Part shown: positions 8,524 to 22,247 of the stretch, piece after piece | Position numbering within the stretch: position 1 is the first letter of the stretch | Layout: each line of letters opens with the position of its first letter | Virus record (IMG/VR): IMGVR_UViG_3300027728_000098 | Coordinates: 1-23,059 of that record | DNA length: 23,059 bases | Reading direction: 5' to 3' (one strand) | Source: a virus | Program-made: the position numbers and the translations under genes | The notes under the pieces: model-generated | The model's input: the letters and a program-made list of their open reading frames with translations, nothing else | What the model was told of the DNA's origin: nothing | Databases searched by the model: none

Positions 8524-8550
8524 TAGCAGGTACTCCTGAGTGATTCGAAA

Positions 8551-9900
8551 TCAGCCGAACTTGAGGGCGACAATCGGGCCAGCCTTGGCAGCGTTGCCGA
8601 GGTCGTGAGCAACCATCGCGACGCGAGCCGTTGCAAAAGTGAGGGTCTGGTCGTACTCGATAAACCGGCTGGCGTCGGTCTTGATCGTCACGCCACGCCG
8701 CTCGCCGAACGTCGCTGCCTGGCTCATGTCGCCGAACAGGCAGGCCACCGTGCCGGTCGTGCCACTTAAGGCAGACTGGAGCGGATGGCACAGCACCACG
8801 GGGAAGCCGAGGAACTGGAGGTTCGCACCACCAGCGATGTCCGCAGCATTGTTGCCCGCGTTGGCGACCATCAGCCGCAGCATCGAGGAACCGTAGCCAG
8901 CGGGCGAGATGAAAAACTTCGCGTTCCGGCGGGCGAACAGCGGAGCCTTCGCGACGAGGCTGGTGAAGTCAGTCAGGGTCAGAGCATCGAACGTCGTCCG
9001 GCTGGTGGCAGTTGCCACGCTGGCCGAGTGCGTACCGTCGTTGATGGCGGAAGCCACACCTACCGTACCGTGGTAAGTGCTGCCGCCGTCACCGATGAGA
9101 CCGGCGTTGTCGTACGCTTCGGCGAACGACTGAGCCACCTCGACCGCCATTGCGTCGGCCAGGTCGATGACCGAGTCTTCCAGCAGGCTGTTGGGCACGC
9201 GGTTGTCGATGCCCCAAAGCTTCGCGATCAGGTTGACGTTGTCGAAGGTCACTTCGCTCGTAGAGGGAGCAGCGTTCTCGCCGATAGGCCGGGCCGACAG
9301 GCCGCTTGTCCTGCGAGCAACGAGCATCGAGTCGGTGTTCATCGAAACCCGGCGAAACTCGCTGGGCACAACGCCGAACTCTTCGACGAGCCGAATGATC
9401 TCAGACGACAGCTCGTCGCTGACGAGAACGCCACCGAGCGAGTTGATCGAGCCAGCCTGGGCACGGCTTTCGACGCCGTGATCGACGCACCACCGACGAG
9501 CCTCCGCATCACCGAGCGTGTAGCCCTTCAGGTGCATTCCGGCACGGTATGCCCGCTCTTCGGCGTTGGCACCCTTGAAAGCCTTGAGTCGGCCAGTGGC
9601 ACGGGGGATGGCGTAGTTGCGAGTTTCCACTTTGGTCTCCTTGACCTCGGGGGCATCAACGGCCTTGGCGGGCGCGGCCCGCTCAATCACGGCACGCAGT
9701 TCAATCTGTTTGGCTTCGATTCGCTGGAGCAGTTCGACCTGCTCACGCAGCTTGGCGGCGCGAGTCTCAAGCGACCGCAGGGAGGCCTCTTGCTCCTCGC
9801 TCATCGCGGGAGCATCACCTTCAGAGGGCGTCTCGCTGGTGGCCTCCATTTCGGCGACCACGGCGGCCAGTTCGTCGAGCAGCTGCTTCAGCTTGTCCAT
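8551..9900 (-). CDS. HK97-fold major capsid protein with N-terminal delta domain
   Basis: The 449-residue protein starts at the ATG at 9900 with AGGAG six bases upstream. Residues 1 to about 85 are a charged coiled coil (MDKLKQLLDELAAVVAEM onward), the delta scaffold normally removed by the prohead protease. The rest has HK97-family wording: GSINSLGGVLVSDELSSEIIRL, FRRVSMNTDSMLV, KLWGIDNRVPNSLLEDSVIDL (E-loop/spine helix area), KFFISPAGYGSSMLRL and FGFPVV-like NLQFLGFPVVLCHPL, and the C-terminal FGDMSQAATFGERRGVTIKTDAS. It is the shell subunit of the head. Whether cross-linking occurs cannot be judged. Confidence 0.95.
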   Translation of the reverse strand: MDKLKQLLDELAAVVAEMEATSETPSEGDAPAMSEEQEASLRSLETRAAKLREQVELLQRIEAKQIELRAVIERAAPAKAVDAPEVKETKVETRNYAIPRATGRLKAFKGANAEERAYRAGMHLKGYTLGDAEARRWCVDHGVESRAQAGSINSLGGVLVSDELSSEIIRLVEEFGVVPSEFRRVSMNTDSMLVARRTSGLSARPIGENAAPSTSEVTFDNVNLIAKLWGIDNRVPNSLLEDSVIDLADAMAVEVAQSFAEAYDNAGLIGDGGSTYHGTVGVASAINDGTHSASVATATSRTTFDALTLTDFTSLVAKAPLFARRNAKFFISPAGYGSSMLRLMVANAGNNAADIAGGANLQFLGFPVVLCHPLQSALSGTTGTVACLFGDMSQAATFGERRGVTIKTDASRFIEYDQTLTFATARVAMVAHDLGNAAKAGPIVALKFG

Positions 9901-9996
9901 GTTGGACTCCTGTGTGCGGGATGCGGGCGGCCAACGCTGCCCACACACTGAAGCTATGGCTGCAAGCCCCCACCCATCCAGAACACAGTAAAACAC
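9901..9996 (-). promoter_or_regulatory. Untranslated leader before the capsid gene
   Basis: About 96 bases separate the zinc-ribbon stop from the capsid ATG, the largest gap in the otherwise overlapping structural operon. It holds the capsid ribosome binding site and a GC-rich stretch that can form a small hairpin (GGGC...GCCC). An internal promoter to boost capsid expression would be reasonable here, but no clear -35/-10 pair is visible. Confidence 0.35.
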
Positions 9997-10170
9997 TCAG
10001 CCGACTCGCAGCCGCCGCACTTCGAACGCTTGCAGCACATGCTTGCCAGTGCAGCCGCACGCATCGCAGCGTAAGTACCGAATCTGGTACTCGCCCTGCC
10101 GCTGGCTGCTGGCGATTTGCAGCCGCCCGCCACGGCACCGCGAACACGAATCGCCTGTCTTAGCGGCCAT
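9997..10170 (-). CDS. Small zinc-ribbon protein
   Basis: This 57-residue protein has two CxxC knuckles, CSRC (residues 8-11) and CDAC (about 36-39), spaced as in a zinc ribbon, with the intervening strands LQIASSQR and YQIRYLRC. The ATG at 10170 overlaps the prohead protease stop by 11 bases. Zinc ribbons of this size bind nucleic acid or protein; Mu Com-like regulators have a similar layout, but there is no modification gene next door to support that role. It lies between protease and capsid genes, where scaffold or regulatory functions are possible. Confidence 0.75.
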   Translation of the reverse strand: MAAKTGDSCSRCRGGRLQIASSQRQGEYQIRYLRCDACGCTGKHVLQAFEVRRLRVG

Positions 10171-10813
10171 GCTTGCTGAGGTACTCGCGGAGGGCTGTGG
10201 TTTTCTGTGCCATCTCAATCCACGCTGCCGTCGCCACCGCTGTGTGCTTGCGGTACAAATCGAACGAACGCTGTGCCACGCTTACGTCAGCATCAGGGTA
10301 GGCAGGGAACGTCACTGGCCCCACGTCGATCAGGCTGTCGATCTTCGTGACGGTGCGGATGCTGCGGCCATCCTCCACGCTCCACGCCTCGCCGCCGGGG
10401 GCGATCTGGAAGCTGAACGAACTGCCACGCACGATGCCAGCGTCAATGTTGCTGGCGAGGTCGCGGCCATAGGTCGTGTCGGGCACCTTGAACTCATACC
10501 GCAGCCCGATCTCGTCCACGTTCATCCGCAGCGTGCCGGGATAGCGAGCCAGCGGGTAGTTCGCGTCGTGGTTGAAAAGTGCCCGCGTCTCTAGCGGACG
10601 CTTGCGGCCACGCCGCTCGGCGACGATGCCAAATGCTTCGGGGGCAATCCGCTCGGTGAACTCACCTAGGACGAGCGAGTTGACGCCGAACTTGGCGGCG
10701 TAGCCGACGATGTATCGGCTTTCGCCCGCATCGCCTTCTTCGCTGCGAGACTCCACGCGGAGCAGCGGCAGGGCGTCGGAGTCATCTTCGTACAGGCTGC
10801 GTCGCTCAATCAT
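10160..10813 (-). CDS. HK97-family prohead maturation protease
   Basis: The 217-residue protein matches the U35/HK97 gp4-type serine protease that cleaves the capsid delta domain. Seen: RYIVGYAAKFG strand, FTERIAPEAF (typical ERIxPGAF variant), FNHD with the likely catalytic His82, GLRYEFKVPDT, and IVRGSSFSFQI with the likely nucleophile Ser132. The start overlaps the portal stop by ATGA. The order portal, protease, capsid is standard. Confidence 0.94.
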   Translation of the reverse strand: MIERRSLYEDDSDALPLLRVESRSEEGDAGESRYIVGYAAKFGVNSLVLGEFTERIAPEAFGIVAERRGRKRPLETRALFNHDANYPLARYPGTLRMNVDEIGLRYEFKVPDTTYGRDLASNIDAGIVRGSSFSFQIAPGGEAWSVEDGRSIRTVTKIDSLIDVGPVTFPAYPDADVSVAQRSFDLYRKHTAVATAAWIEMAQKTTALREYLSKHGR

Positions 10814-12306
10814 TTTTGCTTGCTCCTCTTGCGTGTTGCCAGAACTGGCTCCGCTGCTGGAGCCGACTCACTCACTCCTGCGAGAATCGACGCAACCTGT
10901 GCGGCGGTGATGCTCGGGAACGACGCAGCGATCAGTGCCGCTGCCCCTTCCTTCGTGATGAGCCCCGCTGGCACTTGCTGCAAGATTGCAATCAGCCCCG
11001 TGATCTGTGCCTCGTTGAGCGACACGTCGGCGACCTGCGGAGCCACCGGCTCGGCTGGCTCGCCTTGCTCTGCCGCTGCCACGCCGCCTTCGACTGCCTG
11101 GCCGTCGATGCCGCTGCCCGGCCGCTGCTGGGCAAGCACGTCGTCCACTGACGGCATCGCACCGAGCGTGCCCATGTTGAGCGGGCGGTATCGCTCGTCG
11201 CCGCCGTCAACCGGGTCGAGGTTCTCACTGGCTCTGATGTCGTTCGTCGACACGACGCCAATGTCCCACATGGCACGGTAGTACGCCGACCGGCTCGCGG
11301 CATCGCCACGCAAGAGGCCACGCACGTCAAACTCGGCAAGGTACTTCTCGTCGTCAACGATCAAGTCTCGCACGAACGCAGACTCGAAACGTCGCAGCCA
11401 CGGCATGATCGTGTGCGTCACGAACTGAATCTCGCTCTGCGGCGAACCCGGCTCCAGGCCGAGCAGGTAACCGGGGACGCGGAACAGCCTCGCGATCTCG
11501 CGTAACTGATGCTCTCGCAGTTCCAGATACTGGGAATCGCTGTTCGACGCATACGGCACTTCGTAGGGCTTGAGCCCGCCGGTCAGTACCGCTGTTTCGT
11601 GGGCGTTGTGCGGGCCGCGATGCTTGCGGTTCCAATTCTCTGACAGTTCGCGGCGAGCCTCGGCGTTGAGTTGGTTCTCTGTGCTGAGGATGAAGCCCGG
11701 CCGGGCACCGGCACCGAAGAACCTCGCCCCGTGCACCTCGCACGCCCGAGCCAACGCGATCGCCTCGCGGCACTCCTCGACAATCGAGATGCCGTGAACG
11801 CCGTCGTCACTCGGCCCACGCAGGTGCAGAATCTGCTCGTCGGAGTAGACCGTCTGGCGACCCTGAGCCTCGCGATACGAATACCGCAGCCTGCCGTTCT
11901 CCAACGTCTCGACCTTCATCCGGCTCGGATGCAACGGCACGATCTGGTCAATCGCACCGGCCGCCCCCGGCACTAGCTCAGAGAACGCATCGCCCCACAA
12001 GGCGACGTGCATCACTGCCTGCTCACGCCACTCGAAACTCGTCTGCCAGTTATTCGGCTGGCTGTGCAGCCTGCGATAGAGCGGCAGTTCGCGGGCCAGC
12101 CGCTTGCCGCCGGTTTCAGTCCGCTCAAGCAAGTGCAGCGGCAGACCGGCCACCGTCTCGGCAAGGATCCGCAGGCACGAAAACACCGCAGCCACGGACG
12201 TCGCATTCTCAGGCGTAATCCTCACGCCAGCAGGCGACCGCCCGCCGTCGTCGTCCCATGAACGCTCTTCACCGGGGAGCCAGAGGATGCGGTTTTCGGC
12301 AATCAT
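10810..12306 (-). CDS. HK97-family portal protein
   Basis: The 498-residue protein starts at the ATG at 12306, overlapping the large terminase stop (ATGA); a longer open frame upstream lies within the terminase and is discarded. Family wording: ATSVAAVFSCLRILAETVAGLPLHLL at the N-terminus, QAVMHVALWGDAFSEL, HPSRMKV, YSDEQILHLRG, and LREHQLREIARLFRVPGYLLGLEPGSPQSEIQ, typical of portals. It forms the dodecameric channel at one vertex. A C-terminal extension (about 415-498) with Ala/Glu-rich segments and LITKEGAAALIAASFP resembles the helical tails seen on some portals. Confidence 0.95.
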   Translation of the reverse strand: MIAENRILWLPGEERSWDDDGGRSPAGVRITPENATSVAAVFSCLRILAETVAGLPLHLLERTETGGKRLARELPLYRRLHSQPNNWQTSFEWREQAVMHVALWGDAFSELVPGAAGAIDQIVPLHPSRMKVETLENGRLRYSYREAQGRQTVYSDEQILHLRGPSDDGVHGISIVEECREAIALARACEVHGARFFGAGARPGFILSTENQLNAEARRELSENWNRKHRGPHNAHETAVLTGGLKPYEVPYASNSDSQYLELREHQLREIARLFRVPGYLLGLEPGSPQSEIQFVTHTIMPWLRRFESAFVRDLIVDDEKYLAEFDVRGLLRGDAASRSAYYRAMWDIGVVSTNDIRASENLDPVDGGDERYRPLNMGTLGAMPSVDDVLAQQRPGSGIDGQAVEGGVAAAEQGEPAEPVAPQVADVSLNEAQITGLIAILQQVPAGLITKEGAAALIAASFPSITAAQVASILAGVSESAPAAEPVLATRKRSKQK

Positions 12307-15671: not shown

Positions 15672-15994
15672 GCCACCACCTCAACTACGCCTTGCAACGC
15701 CGTCCGCTGCACGCCGCCGGGAGCAACCCAGTCGAGCCGCCAGCCATAGGTGCCGGCAGCGAGCGACCGCGTCTGCGTGTCTGTGAGGCTCACGGCGACA
15801 ATCGCAGCAGCGGCATCGGTGACGCTCGTCGTGATCGGCGATACCGTTCCACCCGTCACTAGGCTTGTGAGCGTGCTGGTCACCGTGTAGCCGACGAGCG
15901 AGACGCCACCGAAGTCGATGGACGTGGCGAAGTCGTCACCGCGTTTGAACGCGAGGCTCATGGTGCCGGGTAGCTGTGTGTACGTTGAACTCAC
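15668..15994 (-). CDS. Baseplate-like beta-domain protein (BppU N-domain type)
   Basis: This 108-residue protein is read from a GTG at 15994, with AGGAG eight bases upstream and a GTGA overlap with the previous stop; an in-frame extension upstream is unlikely. It has FKRGDDFATSIDF, YTVTSTLTSL, VSLTDTQTRSLAAGTYGWRLDW and a C-terminal TALQGVVEVV strand. The pattern (GDDF, then LTxxQTxxLxxGxYxWxL, then GxVxV) is that of small Ig-like or BppU N-terminal-like domains linked to baseplates and fibres. It is coupled to the fibre gene that follows and likely helps attach or assemble it. Confidence 0.65.
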   Translation of the reverse strand: MSSTYTQLPGTMSLAFKRGDDFATSIDFGGVSLVGYTVTSTLTSLVTGGTVSPITTSVTDAAAAIVAVSLTDTQTRSLAAGTYGWRLDWVAPGGVQRTALQGVVEVVA

Positions 15995-16263
15995 TTGGTT
16001 GCTCCTGCTTTGCAGCGGCACGACGCTGGGCACGGGCACGCCGTGCGATGTCCGTCGCCGTGAACGATGTAGCCTTTGCCGCCGCACTCAGTGCAGCAGG
16101 CAGGCTTCGGCCTGGGTGGCTCTGGCGTGGGCTCTGGAGCCCGTTCCTGTGCCGTAGTGGCGTAGGCTGCCGAGACCGCCGCCGAGGCTCTAGGAGCCTC
16201 TTGGTCGAGTTGTGCAGGGTCTGCGGCGAGTGACGCCAACAGTGAGAGCAGCCATTGCCACAT
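15991..16263 (-). CDS. Exported or anchored small Cys-rich protein
   Basis: The 90-residue protein starts at ATG 16263 within a TGATG junction. A hydrophobic N-terminus (MWQWLLSLLASLAADP) looks like a signal or anchor, followed by a low-complexity Ala/Glu/Pro linker and a C-terminal Cys-rich part with CCTECGGKGYIVHGDGH and CPCPASCRCKAG. The CxxCxGKG knuckle resembles a DnaJ-type zinc motif. No function can be assigned; location in the membrane-protein cassette suggests an envelope role. Confidence 0.65.
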   Translation of the reverse strand: MWQWLLSLLASLAADPAQLDQEAPRASAAVSAAYATTAQERAPEPTPEPPRPKPACCTECGGKGYIVHGDGHRTACPCPASCRCKAGATK

Positions 16264-16526
16264 CACCAGCCCTCCCCGTGGTTGAGAACTTTGTGCCCGT
16301 CTTCGTCCACGCGAGCATGCACAACGTACTGCGGCTGTTCAGGCGGCGGCGGCTCGGCGAACATCATCGCCCACAATCCGAGGCGTGCGAGCCGCTGCAC
16401 GAACCGCAGCACCGGGCGTGCTGGCTCGGGCTTGACCGGCGAGTAGTCGCTGGTCGCGGCCCACCACGTGAGCATCACGGCGACCACGCCGACGACCAGA
16501 GCGGATTGGATTTCTCTTTTGGTCAT
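16263..16526 (-). CDS. Small membrane protein of unknown role
   Basis: The 87-residue protein has one clear N-terminal membrane segment (SALVVGVVAVMLTWWAA, about 8-24), a basic middle (RFVQRLARLGLWAMMF, perhaps amphipathic or a second short membrane segment) and a hydrophilic tail with a Pro run. It overlaps the upstream gene by ATGA and the downstream one by one base. It resembles spanin or holin-accessory proteins only in size and topology. Confidence 0.65.
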   Translation of the reverse strand: MTKREIQSALVVGVVAVMLTWWAATSDYSPVKPEPARPVLRFVQRLARLGLWAMMFAEPPPPEQPQYVVHARVDEDGHKVLNHGEGW

Positions 16527-16750
16527 CGGTCAACGCTCCAGATCGAGTAGAGAAACATGACGACGCAAGCACCGACCACGCTGCCGATCAGCCCGGCTGG
16601 AGCGTCACCGAACGGCAGACCACCGGCGAGCGAGCCAGCAATGCCGAGGCCAATCGTTGGCACCCAGCCTTCAGGGCAGCGACCGGGCATCACCCACTTG
16701 GCGATGCCACCAGCAATCGCACCGAATACGAGCCATACAAGCAATGACAT
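16523..16750 (-). CDS. GlsB/YeaQ/YmgE-type membrane protein
   Basis: The 75-residue protein starts at the ATG at 16750 with AGGAG five bases upstream. Its sequence (MSLLVWLVFGAIAGGIAKWV, then PGLGIAGSLAGG-like glycine-rich helix, then GSVVGACVVMFLYSIW) matches the three-helix, Gly-rich GlsB/YeaQ/YmgE family (transglycosylase-associated protein). Cellular members are stress-linked inner membrane proteins of unclear activity. In this cassette a holin-like or envelope-perturbing role is possible but not shown. Confidence 0.82.
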   Translation of the reverse strand: MSLLVWLVFGAIAGGIAKWVMPGRCPEGWVPTIGLGIAGSLAGGLPFGDAPAGLIGSVVGACVVMFLYSIWSVDR

Positions 16751-16758
16751 GGGCACTC

Positions 16759-17898
16759 CTAGAGACCGAGGTTGTAGACGTCAGCGATGAGTCGTGCAGT
16801 GTGTGGCGTGGCGGCTTGCTTCTCGGACGGTGCAGGTTGCAGCCATCCGCCGTGGTCGAGGTTGCGATACCGGAAGTTCACGCCCGAGATGCTGAACGAA
16901 TCCTGCCCGGCAAGCATGGCGTCGACAGTCTCACGCGAGACCCAGAACGAGCCGTCAGGCTGGTCGGCGGGCCACTTTCCACCGGCATTGAAGACGCCCC
17001 AGCTATTCATACATAGCAGGCCGTCACGCTTGCCTTCGTTCGCGGCATAGCGCACAGAAATAAAGCACATGCAATGAGCCCAACTCCCAGACCTTACTGC
17101 GAATCCATCAGCGTCACGCTGCGACGAGAATCCGACACCGCTGCATACCGGCACCGGGTAGCCCGACTCGATGCTGGCCGCAGCCTCATCAAAGTTCCGC
17201 ACTAACGCGACGTTCTTCGCCGTGTTCTTGTTGCTGAGCTTCGCCAAGGCGATGCCATTGGCACCACCACCGCACAGCATATTCCCCCACTCTTTGGCGC
17301 GGCTCGGGTTGTACGTCGTGAGATCCGCGCCCGGATACGCTTGGCGAAACAGGATGCCGCCGACTGTCTTGTCTGTGCATTTACCTGCCACCCAGCGTGC
17401 AGCTGCTCCACCGTAAGAGCCGTCGGAGTAGCCCGCCTGCGTCACCGGCGGGAGTCGACCGGCTGTCCTCGATCCTGAATACAGCGGCTCAGTCGCCACC
17501 AGCTTCGGCGGCTCTGGCAGTTCGCCTTCAGCAAAATCGACCGCTTGGCCCACATACGAACCCATGGCCCAGCCAAAGCTGACACAATCACCGATCCCCT
17601 GCCGCCACGGGCCGAACGGCTTGCCGTAGACCAGGCGGTGAGCCCTATCGGCGTGCCTGTAGAGAAAAGTGTCCTTCTGCTGCGCCTTGGCGATGACGTC
17701 TTTGCCAGCGTCCGAGAAAAGCGGCTGGTCGAGCGTTGCCAGAAACTGCCGCGTACCCTCGGGATCAGGCACATACCCGAACTGCCCGTCGACTCTCGCC
17801 ACGACCTTGCTCGTGGCTTGCGTGACCAGTGCCGACAGCACAGCCATCACGACCACGAACGCCACGGCAGACAGAGACCATTGATTACTTCGTGACAT
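16759..17898 (-). CDS. Membrane-anchored papain-like cysteine peptidase
   Basis: The 379-residue protein has an N-terminal membrane anchor (about 9-28) and a C1-like peptidase domain. Seen: WRQGIGDCVSFGWA with Gln100 and likely nucleophile Cys105, the middle insert with GGAAARWVAGKC, GSWAHCMCFISVRY with likely His275, and GLLCMNSWG with Asn298; together these give the Q-C-H-N order of papain-type enzymes. The Q-to-C spacing (five) is one short of papain. Topology places the domain outside the cytoplasm. It lies among membrane proteins, so a lysis, cell-wall or injection-related task is a guess. It overlaps the upstream gene by 14 bases. Confidence 0.85.
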   Translation of the reverse strand: MSRSNQWSLSAVAFVVVMAVLSALVTQATSKVVARVDGQFGYVPDPEGTRQFLATLDQPLFSDAGKDVIAKAQQKDTFLYRHADRAHRLVYGKPFGPWRQGIGDCVSFGWAMGSYVGQAVDFAEGELPEPPKLVATEPLYSGSRTAGRLPPVTQAGYSDGSYGGAAARWVAGKCTDKTVGGILFRQAYPGADLTTYNPSRAKEWGNMLCGGGANGIALAKLSNKNTAKNVALVRNFDEAAASIESGYPVPVCSGVGFSSQRDADGFAVRSGSWAHCMCFISVRYAANEGKRDGLLCMNSWGVFNAGGKWPADQPDGSFWVSRETVDAMLAGQDSFSISGVNFRYRNLDHGGWLQPAPSEKQAATPHTARLIADVYNLGL

Positions 17899-18439
17899 CG
17901 GCAGCAGCCCTCGCTAGGTCACGCAGTGCCGACACCCACGCCGCTCGGCTCTCAGGCGTCACAGGGCCGCCAGACGAGCCGACAGCGTCGTCTAAGAACT
18001 TATGCACGCTGTCTCGCACCTGCGGCTGTCGGGCACCGATGCTCTCGCCACGGCACCGCATCTCGCGGGCGGCGACACGCAGGTCGTCGAACGCTACACC
18101 CGTCTTGAGTCGCTGGTCATGTGAGCCGTCGTACTCGAGGCACTCGGCTAGCTCTGCACAGAGAGCCGACATCGTCGCAGCGTCCGACGCTGCACTCGGC
18201 CCGATAAACTTGCCTCGTAGCGTGAACGCATCCGGCGGCACCGGCACCGGCACGGGCTGCGGCGCTGGCTTGCTCGGCATGAACGCAATCGCAGCAGCGA
18301 CCAGCAGGGCGAACGCTGCGAGGTGCTTGCCGTCGATGCGGGGCTTGTTCGCCGAGGCGTACCACGCCTGCACTCGCTCAGTGATCTGCTGACCGGCGAG
18401 AGCGTACAAAGCAAACGCCAGAAGGATGGCTGTAATCAT
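17885..18439 (-). CDS. Two-helix membrane protein with external domain
   Basis: The 184-residue protein starts at the ATG at 18439 overlapping the previous stop (ATGA). Two hydrophobic segments (MITAILLAFALYALAG at the N-terminus and HLAAFALLVAAAIAFM, about 39-54), a Pro/Val linker (KPAPQPVPVPVPP), then a mostly helical soluble domain with conserved-looking Cys residues (LCAELAECLEY, EMRCRGES). Family not recognised. Topology and tight coupling to the peptidase gene suggest a partner in the same envelope function. Confidence 0.68.
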   Translation of the reverse strand: MITAILLAFALYALAGQQITERVQAWYASANKPRIDGKHLAAFALLVAAAIAFMPSKPAPQPVPVPVPPDAFTLRGKFIGPSAASDAATMSALCAELAECLEYDGSHDQRLKTGVAFDDLRVAAREMRCRGESIGARQPQVRDSVHKFLDDAVGSSGGPVTPESRAAWVSALRDLARAAADVTK

Positions 18440-18792
18440 TTCGCTCTCACCAGTGGAAGGATTGTTTCGATCGTCCCGGCGGCAATCGCCACGACCAGCG
18501 CCCGTGCCGGTGGCCGGACAACAAACCAGAACGGGTACACCGTCATCGGCACGCACGCCACAGCCAACGTGTCGAACAGCACGCCGACAGACTCCAGCAC
18601 GATGTCCTTTTTCTGTGGCCCGGTGAGCGTCTGCGTAGCGTCGAGCATCTCGACCGCCAGCCTGACCAGTGCCGCGACCAGCGACCCGAACTCAGCCCAC
18701 GTCAGACCGTCGCGGGCCTGATCGCGGGCAGCGTGCAAGAACCGCTGAGCCGCGACGATGAACGCCGGGAGTGTGTTTTCGTCGGACACCAT
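18436..18792 (-). CDS. Holin-like small membrane protein
   Basis: The 118-residue protein is read from the ATG at 18792, with GAGAGG about seven bases upstream; an in-frame extension upstream is rejected. It has an amphipathic N-terminal half (LPAFIVAAQRFLHAARDQARDG, then WAEFGSLVAALVRLAVEM), then LTGPQKKDIVLESVGVLFDTL and two hydrophobic stretches (about 70-92 and 95-112). The TGPQKK-helix next to membrane helices resembles some phage holin-type proteins (LLH type). No signature clinches it; the neighbours (membrane proteins and peptidase) favour a lysis role. Confidence 0.6.
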   Translation of the reverse strand: MVSDENTLPAFIVAAQRFLHAARDQARDGLTWAEFGSLVAALVRLAVEMLDATQTLTGPQKKDIVLESVGVLFDTLAVACVPMTVYPFWFVVRPPARALVVAIAAGTIETILPLVRAK

Positions 18793-19431: not shown

Positions 19432-20304
19432 TCACTCCAGCCAATACATCACAGACCGCATCGCCGGATCGAGGTACAACCGATGCCCTGTCCTCTCGGC
19501 AATCGTCGCATGAAATGGCACATGCTCGCAGTCCGTCCCGTCATACGTTCCAGCGAGGTACGCCTGCGTCTCGTAGATCGCCAGCCCGCCGAACGCAGAG
19601 CAGACCGGGATCGGCGGTGAGCCGACTGCCGGTAACCAGCGATGCTTCCAGCCCCCGAGGCCAGCGGTGTAGTCATCCCACGACGAATTGAGCCTCAGTG
19701 CCCACGCGTCATAGTGCAGCCACGACTTGGTCGGCCCATGTTCCATGATCGACACGCTCGCCATCCCATAGGCGTCGGTCATCGTCGCAAGCGATCCCAT
19801 ACCGTGCATCACGCCCGCGTGGCTCCAGCCGCCCCACGCATCCCAGTCGATGACCAGCGTGTAGGTCGAGTCGGCACAATGCCGCCGCACCCACTCCTGG
19901 CACGCCGTGCGGTACTCAGCCAGGGCGACCGTTCGCGGCCCGGCAAACTCTGCCGAGAACTGCTGCCGGTTGAGCGTCTGCGAGTGGAACGACGCCTGCG
20001 GATAGGCTCCGCAGAAGTTTGCCAGCACCGTTTCCGTATCGTCGGTGTTGTCGTTGGTGGCAATGTGGAGCCGCCACGACCGGCAGTCAGCGACAAGCTG
20101 CAAGAGCCTAGCCAGATTCGCGTTGAGCCACGGGGCACAGTTGCGAGCCAGCCCGACGATAGCCACGTCGGACTCAGCCCACGCATCGACGCCCGTGTGA
20201 TACATGCGGGCGAAGTCACCCGCGAACGCATCGAGCGGATAGATCAGGTGTTCAGGCACCAGTTGCGATTTTGGCAAGTTTTTCAATGAGGCTGAGTCGG
20301 TCAT
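19432..20304 (-). CDS. Putative glycosyltransferase (CAP59/GT69-like pattern)
   Basis: The 290-residue protein has the GT-A build: VAIVGLARNCAPWL at the start of the fold, LHIATNDNTDDTETVL, VIDWDAWGG with a DxD-like D153-W-D155, and CSAFGGLAIYETQAYLAGTY then DGTDCEHVPFH near the end. This second part resembles fungal-type mannosyltransferase relatives (CAP59) found also in bacteria and phages; that link is from memory. The ATG at 20304 lies 53 bases inside the upstream glycosyltransferase gene and has no strong ribosome binding site, so a later start (for example GTG near 20259) is possible. Confidence 0.7.
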   Translation of the reverse strand: MTDSASLKNLPKSQLVPEHLIYPLDAFAGDFARMYHTGVDAWAESDVAIVGLARNCAPWLNANLARLLQLVADCRSWRLHIATNDNTDDTETVLANFCGAYPQASFHSQTLNRQQFSAEFAGPRTVALAEYRTACQEWVRRHCADSTYTLVIDWDAWGGWSHAGVMHGMGSLATMTDAYGMASVSIMEHGPTKSWLHYDAWALRLNSSWDDYTAGLGGWKHRWLPAVGSPPIPVCSAFGGLAIYETQAYLAGTYDGTDCEHVPFHATIAERTGHRLYLDPAMRSVMYWLE

Positions 20305-20890
20305 CGTATTGCGTCACATGCACGAGGTGCGGCTTGTCGGGCTTGTTCATATCGCCGGGGTGGTGGTTCCACTCTGGACCCAGGAACGTCGTCTCGTCGT
20401 AGAGTCTGGTGGGGCTGTCAAGTTTTCCGTGCGGGCCGGGCTCGACGACGTAGCCCATCAGCCGCATGATCGCCGCCTGCTCCCACCACGGGTGCTGCAC
20501 GCAGTCTGTGCCCTCCATCCACGCACGCTCTAGCGTCGGAATCATGTCCTGCGTCACGACCCACACGCCGCAGTTCGGGACGCGACCGCACTCGGTCAGA
20601 TGCTCGACCACCGCTTGGCATGTGCCCGGCTGCAACTCAGCGATGATGTCAGCACCGGGCCATGCGATCACGACATCCACGTCGAGCCAGCAGACAACGT
20701 CATACGTGCCGAGGGCCGCGTGCAGGGCGGGCAACTTATTCCACGACGGCGGGCGGTCGCCACCCTCCAGCAGCAGCGTGCGGATGTCGTGGCCGTGCCG
20801 CTTGGCATACGCTGCCATCAGCGGCACAGTGTGCCGGGACATCGCGGTGTGCAGGTCGCCGGTCCAGCCGGTGAGAATCAGAGACCGCAT
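20252..20890 (-). CDS. Putative GT-A glycosyltransferase
   Basis: The 212-residue protein begins MRSLILTGWTGDLHTAMSRH, then PSWNKLPALHAAL, and VVCWLDVDVVI with a DxD motif (D70, D72), followed by PNCGVWVVTQ (acceptor side), HPWWEQAAIM, FLGPEWNHHPGD and HVTQYDDR. This order (WxK helix, DxD, NxGxW, WWEQ, WNxH, H.TQ) resembles the GT34/galactosyl-transferase type of GT-A enzymes. It lies between a GNAT-like gene and another glycosyltransferase, forming a small sugar-modification cluster. Donor and acceptor are unknown. Confidence 0.8.
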   Translation of the reverse strand: MRSLILTGWTGDLHTAMSRHTVPLMAAYAKRHGHDIRTLLLEGGDRPPSWNKLPALHAALGTYDVVCWLDVDVVIAWPGADIIAELQPGTCQAVVEHLTECGRVPNCGVWVVTQDMIPTLERAWMEGTDCVQHPWWEQAAIMRLMGYVVEPGPHGKLDSPTRLYDETTFLGPEWNHHPGDMNKPDKPHLVHVTQYDDRLSLIEKLAKIATGA

Positions 20891-21935: not shown

Positions 21936-22247
21936 TCACTCGTACCGGATCACGGCGAACCAACCACGCGGGCCGCGAGCGACAGCTTTTTCCACGATCC
22001 TGTAGCGACCGTAGAAGCAGCAGCTGCGGATCGCCGCATCAGGCGACGACGACGAGAACCCGATGCCTTCACGCCTGCCGCCATTCATCCCGCAATGACG
22101 CAGAACGCCAGTGCGTGCCATCGTCTCGGCATCTTGTTGTGCCGTGGAAATGTTCACCCGCCGGGCGTTGATGATGACATCGTTTCCGAAAATGATGCCG
22201 GGGGGGGCGGCGCATAGAAACGCGAGAGCCAAGACAATCCGTTGCAT
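21936..22247 (-). CDS. Small secreted Cys-containing protein
   Basis: The 103-residue protein starts at the ATG at 22247, seven bases after AAGGAG. Residues 1 to about 21 (MQRIVLALAFLCAAPPGIIF) form a signal peptide, with cleavage plausible near 20-22. The remainder has TARTG-like MARTGVLRHCGMNGG, then FSSSSPDAAIRSCCFYG and VARGPRGWFAVIRYE, and four Cys outside the leader counting CC as two. An eight-base C run lies in the signal region. This seems to be the first gene of the long minus-strand operon. Family not recognised. Confidence 0.75.
   Translation of the reverse strand: MQRIVLALAFLCAAPPGIIFGNDVIINARRVNISTAQQDAETMARTGVLRHCGMNGGRREGIGFSSSSPDAAIRSCCFYGRYRIVEKAVARGPRGWFAVIRYE

Follow-up and report, generated by a model that had tools for sequence, protein, structure and literature searches.

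We analysed a virus-derived stretch of 23,059 bases (IMG/VR record IMGVR_UViG_3300027728_000098, a partial record; hereafter the window), the genes of which lie mainly on the minus strand. Six small genes, named here H, Q, P, T, N and Z, follow one another head to tail on this strand at window positions 15991-18792, with early genes (RusA, glycosyltransferase-like) on one side and HNH, TerS and TerL genes on the other. An earlier reading of the DNA alone (hereafter the original prediction) had described them as a membrane/envelope cassette containing a papain-like peptidase and no endolysin. All six open reading frames (ORFs) are present where it had placed them, and the same order recurs in approximately 100 contigs. 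The genes, and the catalytic codons of P, are as follows.

H: 18436-18792, minus strand; 118 residues, two hydrophobic segments, conserved G..KK, D74, P82 and G106..E109; upstream of P in every case.
Q: 17885-18439, minus strand; 184 residues, two N-terminal hydrophobic helices, a Pro-rich linker and a conserved helical domain (residues ~74-184).
P: 16759-17898, minus strand; 379 residues, predicted membrane-anchored papain-type (C1-like) cysteine peptidase.
P codon for the catalytic Cys105: 17584-17586, minus strand.
P codon for the catalytic His275: 17074-17076, minus strand.
P codon for the catalytic Asn298 (NSWG motif): 17005-17007, minus strand.
T: 16523-16750, minus strand; 75 residues, multi-span membrane protein probably related to GlsB/YeaQ (PF04226).
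N: 16263-16526, minus strand; 87 residues, single-span, with a conserved hydrophobic second helix (RPVLR..LARLGLW) and a C-terminal HGxGW.
Z: 15991-16266, minus strand; 91 residues, signal-like N-terminus, conserved AAV..AYA helix and a Cys-rich zinc-ribbon-like tail.

The stop-to-start distances are -4 (H/Q), -14 (Q/P), +8 (P/T), -4 (T/N) and -4 (N/Z), and the gene after Z, which is of tail type, overlaps it by a further -4. Counting this last junction, five of six overlap, so that the translational coupling claimed earlier for the whole set is borne out by the overlaps at the other junctions but not at P/T, with its 8-bp gap. Since the operon-like run extends beyond Z, the limits of the cassette were defined by conservation and not by gaps. 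Comparison with two close relatives gave ratios of non-synonymous to synonymous substitution rates (dN/dS) of 0.07-0.18 for H, Q, P, T and N, indicating purifying selection and ruling out that the ORFs are chance frames.

The active site of P is strictly conserved. In an alignment of 20 P relatives (44-89% identity), Gln100, Cys105, His275, Asn298, Ser299 and Trp300 were invariant, and the Cys-His-Asn triad with its preceding Gln and the NSWG motif was also kept in the full-length P copies inspected. One sub-clade of P reads NQGSAGTC (an NQGxxGxC pattern), the papain signature. The catalytic cysteine is thus residue 105, as first assigned, and the competence of the Cys-His-Asn site, which the original prediction had set beforehand as a refuting test, was found to be intact; a catalytically dead P is ruled out by the invariant residues. 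Sequence searches said little about P: Pfam gave no family up to E 1 (PF00112 had 0 matches in the window), the PHROG match was weak, and searches of PDB sequences with P alone and as a profile returned nothing meaningful. The structure prediction that had been proposed as a check was more informative. An AlphaFold2 model of P, with a pLDDT (predicted local distance difference test) score of 74.7, gave 71 PDB matches at E<=1e-3 with Foldseek, of which xylellain (3OIS) was the best (1e-7), followed by cathepsin B, cruzain and others; all 50 of the PDB matches listed were papain-type enzymes or their proforms. Among viral models, P matched phage C1 peptidases and LysA of mycobacteriophage MOOREtheMARYer (E 7e-5). 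Judged from its sequence and its modelled fold, P is a papain-type (C1-like) cysteine peptidase with a competent triad. One copy (L060, in record G004) has a broken P reading frame, either an assembly error or a decayed gene.

Hydropathy analysis placed a single N-terminal anchor in P at approximately residues 6-26, Ala/Ser-rich and following a short positively charged start, which would put the enzyme domain on the periplasmic side. P lacks this anchor in loci L218, L226 and L238 and in several prophages; in the three loci it is truly missing, because the stop of Q and the start of P are a few bases apart. It is typical of endolysins that the enzyme occurs both with and without a membrane anchor, next to genes for small membrane proteins.

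The cassette is conserved well beyond the window. A profile search of IMG/VR with P matched at least 600 stretches, and relatives of P are encoded on at least 595 IMG/VR contigs. Gene order was scored using profile hidden Markov models of the six genes. Of 103 loci having 1.5 kb or more of upstream DNA, 93 kept the order H-Q-P; of 98 loci scored downstream of P, 93 had N, 92 had Z and 67 had T. The association also held when P was not the starting point. P was found in 60/60 loci that were collected with H alone and had enough downstream DNA, and in 14/14 TerL relatives having either a cassette match or an upstream stretch of 10 kb or more, the TerL relatives without a cassette match having <5 kb upstream. 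These counts indicate that P and its partners belong together. The search from H found no phage pairing H-Q with a conventional endolysin instead of P. Upstream of more distant TerL genes in prophages there was no P and no clear lysis gene near TerL, except for L352, which has P; this set is uninformative, as several of its prophages are broken or fragmentary. No P relative was detected in the INPHARED phage collection, and no paper was found joining a cysteine protease, holin and lysis with Planctomycetes (the likely hosts, see below), or a transglycosylase-associated protein with holin, phage and lysis. The same gene order, for which a search had been suggested, is thus found in many genomes; the cassette is widespread and, apparently, has not been described before.

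As the window is a partial 23-kb record, the absence of an endolysin was examined in complete relatives. Two of them look complete: G002 (45,242 bases, 123-base end repeat; P 85% and TerL 97% identical to the window) and G003 (42,155 bases, 102-base end repeat). When every called gene of both genomes was scanned with Pfam, and the less obvious ones a second time, no lysozyme, amidase, transglycosylase, M15, M23, CHAP or NlpC/P60 appeared among the families listed. In addition, 21 long records had no Amidase_2, and 29 had no T4-type lysozyme, SLT, M15_3 or M23. The earlier claim that no endolysin is visible therefore holds for the Pfam families listed in both complete genomes and, in 21-29 long records, for five families; within this scope a conventional endolysin elsewhere in the genome, the other refuting condition of the original prediction, did not turn up. 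Genes for membrane or exported proteins form no cluster in G002 and G003 other than the cassette. G002 also encodes a 52-residue single-span protein after its tail genes (8539-8697), a possible small holin outside the cassette.

The position of the cassette varies between phage types, as it precedes HNH/TerS/TerL in one and follows the tail genes in another; next to the terminase and after the tail genes are the two usual places of phage lysis genes. It is co-directional with the late genes and conserved as a unit. P is 96% identical between G003 and a further record, G005, which has relatives of the window TerL, portal, protease and capsid, whereas G003 has none detectable. In Pfam terms, G002 carries an HK97-type portal, TerL and capsid, and G003 a lambda-type portal and GpA nuclease. 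Exchange of the whole cassette between unrelated virion blocks makes it more likely that it acts on the host than in the particle.

These data bear on the idea that P is carried in the virion, opening the envelope at entry or processing virion proteins. Such a role would fit the phage type in which it follows the tail genes, and also prophages L258 and L260, where it is placed between those for the head and the tail. Near-identical P enzymes beside unrelated structural genes argue against it, as do the membrane anchor and the constant company of small membrane proteins. G002 and G003 moreover encode a separate S78 prohead protease, which rules out P as the prohead protease. We thus regard a virion-associated or assembly function as improbable.

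The genomes that carry P relatives point to the host. Eight genome contigs do so, from Planctomycetota metagenome-assembled genomes (MAGs), Blastopirellula marina DSM 3645, an unassigned bacterium, two Mucilaginibacter and one alphaproteobacterial MAG, and P relatives occurred in 12 of 392 Planctomycetota genomes drawn. The alphaproteobacterial contig (L080) is a cassette-bearing fragment of 6.2 kb and probably a mis-binned virus. In B. marina (locus L079, with P at approximately 9783-10951), H, Q, P, an N-like gene and a thioredoxin-type Z are followed by TerL, portal and capsid genes, and the cassette adjoins such genes in Planctomycetota prophages. From these genomes and prophages, the host of the window phage is very likely a planctomycete, a bacterium with an unusual envelope, in agreement with the earlier suggestion of a host with an unusual wall. 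Whether the planctomycete wall consists of protein or of peptidoglycan was disputed for decades. Planctomycetes do contain lysozyme-sensitive peptidoglycan with diaminopimelic acid (DAP) (PMC4432640).

The partner proteins are less easily assigned. None of them had a significant match to holin or spanin families in Pfam or PHROGs, and the label 'holin-like' given to H in the original prediction is not supported by any family match. H does contain a conserved Asp and Glu near or inside its two hydrophobic segments, and on its sequence features it is at best a holin candidate. The structural model of Q (pLDDT 84.6) shows its domain as a confident helical bundle, predicted to lie in the periplasm, and a fold search with this domain gave no PDB match. 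T is probably related to GlsB/YeaQ: the window copy itself fell below the cut-off (E 0.054), the best T relative matches PF04226 at E 7e-5, and planctomycete locus L257 encodes an 83-residue GlsB-like protein that the T model finds at 8e-17. In B. marina-type prophages (L079, positions 11337-11906; L253; L254), Z has a thioredoxin fold (WCPYC) instead of the Cys-rich tail, a hint of periplasmic thiol chemistry. With respect to spanins, no lipobox was found in main-clade H, Q or Z, and only 3 of 110 N sequences had one; lipobox-like neighbours were visible in divergent prophages and L226, and an Rz-like match reached only E 0.019. A PHROGs scan of the cassette neighbours in divergent prophages gave no significant holin match.

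Some genes outside the cassette were also recorded. Two consecutive glycosyltransferase-like genes lie just upstream of it (19432-20304 and 20252-20890, minus strand), the first of which is kept in 16 of the loci examined. A 103-residue exported protein with a signal-like N-terminus and several Cys residues (21936-22247, minus strand) is conserved in the early region of G002 and G003.

Taken together, our results suggest that the cassette is probably the host-lysis (exit) module of a temperate tailed Planctomycetota phage, with a C1-type P in place of an endolysin. The observations behind this are the gene order, its conservation, the triad, the papain fold, the mobility of the cassette, the planctomycete association and the lack of another endolysin in the complete relatives; from them we infer topology, lysis, substrate and the role of each partner. 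P would be made in the cell and inserted into the membrane by its N-terminal anchor. Its catalytic domain would face the periplasm and there take the part of an endolysin by cutting peptide bonds that hold the envelope together, either peptidoglycan cross-bridges or wall and outer-membrane proteins. Membrane permeabilization and timing may come from T and N, perhaps together with H and the anchor region of Q, the periplasmic domain of Q probably binds or controls P or ties it to the envelope, and Z may act on thiols or metals in the periplasm.

A different possibility is a host-surface or superinfection-exclusion module. In an infected cell or a lysogen, P on its anchor would act with its partners to remodel or shave proteins of the envelope, and lysis would be performed by an unrecognized protein elsewhere. 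A C1-type active site suggests protein substrates, accessory membrane proteins are many, and the integrase of G002 and G003 indicates that these phages are probably temperate. However, such modules are usually patchy, in contrast with the presence of P in every informative TerL relative and H locus; P is located among late genes, and no other lysis candidate was found in the complete genomes. A surface module is therefore unlikely, if somewhat less so than a virion function.

Several points weigh against lysis by P. C1-type enzymes normally cleave proteins. The partners have no significant match to a holin or spanin family, and in L258 and L260 the head genes lie on one side of P and the tail genes on the other. 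In Mucilaginibacter (Bacteroidota; L081 and L082), P relatives occur without visible phage genes, which would also suit a surface module; the L081 copy has no anchor and no obvious phage genes beside it. Weak endolysin matches could lie outside the families listed, and an unrecognized endolysin among the other uncharacterized proteins is possible. Moreover, planctomycete peptidoglycan is lysozyme-sensitive (PMC4432640), so that an ordinary endolysin should be effective in these hosts.

Within a lysis cassette, the substrate of P could be of two kinds. Since planctomycetes have DAP peptidoglycan, P may cut peptidoglycan peptides, and in the extreme case it would be a D,D- or L,D-endopeptidase that is C1-like in looks only, the cassette being conventionally muralytic apart from its sequence divergence. 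This is a sub-case of the lysis reading and shares in its likelihood. Papain-fold lysins of the CHAP and NlpC/P60 types are common (PMC10318531), and mycobacteriophage LysA proteins contain cysteine-protease domains (PMC3314691), one LysA being a fold match of P. Conversely, the nearest solved folds are true proteases (xylellain, cathepsins and cruzain), NSWG and the oxyanion Gln are features of C1 enzymes and not of CHAP, and P has no cell-wall-binding domain, so that we consider a muralytic P possible but doubtful. Because its closest folds are true proteases, P may instead cut envelope proteins. A broader and equally tentative proposal is a phylum-wide proteolytic exit, in which Planctomycetota phages without peptidoglycan hydrolases would digest envelope proteins with a C1-type peptidase and five partner families, some of them thiol-active (thioredoxin-type Z).

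If these phages do rely on a protease rather than a muramidase, amidase or transglycosylase, the substrate of P would identify the load-bearing or exit-limiting bond of the planctomycete envelope. In several hundred phage contigs from the environment, where lysis genes currently escape annotation, the cassette would also supply a lysis module; it would further offer a marker for assigning contigs of viruses to Planctomycetota, as well as five new families of partner proteins. Its presence in a prophage of B. marina DSM 3645 makes the lysis reading open to experiment in that bacterium.

Compared with peptidase family C1 (papain, cathepsin B, cruzain and xylellain), P shares the fold, the Gln-Cys-His-Asn order, NSWG and, in one sub-clade, NQGxxGxC, but it has no PF00112 or PDB sequence match and is phage-borne, membrane-anchored and part of a six-gene cassette. 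Gram-negative phages use signal-anchor-release (SAR) or anchored endolysins with holin/spanin cassettes. The present cassette resembles these in the predicted N-terminal anchor on the enzyme, the overlapping small membrane-protein genes and the site near the terminase or after the tail genes, and differs in enzyme class and in partners unrelated in sequence to known holins and spanins. PeiW and PeiP of methanogen phages are pseudomurein endoisopeptidases, cysteine peptidases that lyse hosts with a non-standard wall (PMC4592898). They and P are all phage cysteine peptidases, lysis by P being a prediction, whereas PeiW and PeiP have Cys-His-Asp residues and a pseudomurein substrate. To our knowledge, no membrane cassette comparable with H to Z accompanies PeiW or PeiP. 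In mycobacteriophage LysA, the N4/N5 cysteine-protease domains place a papain-fold peptidase within a phage lysis enzyme (PMC3314691), but as one domain of a modular lysin with amidase or glycosidase and binding domains, whereas P stands alone. CHAP, NlpC/P60 and Amidase_5 endolysins likewise use hydrolases of the papain-like superfamily in lysis (PMC10318531); P has no Pfam match to them and has a C1-type motif order. Thus the cassette is best read as a known kind of module, the phage lysis cassette, in a new form with a C1-type peptidase as its lysis enzyme.

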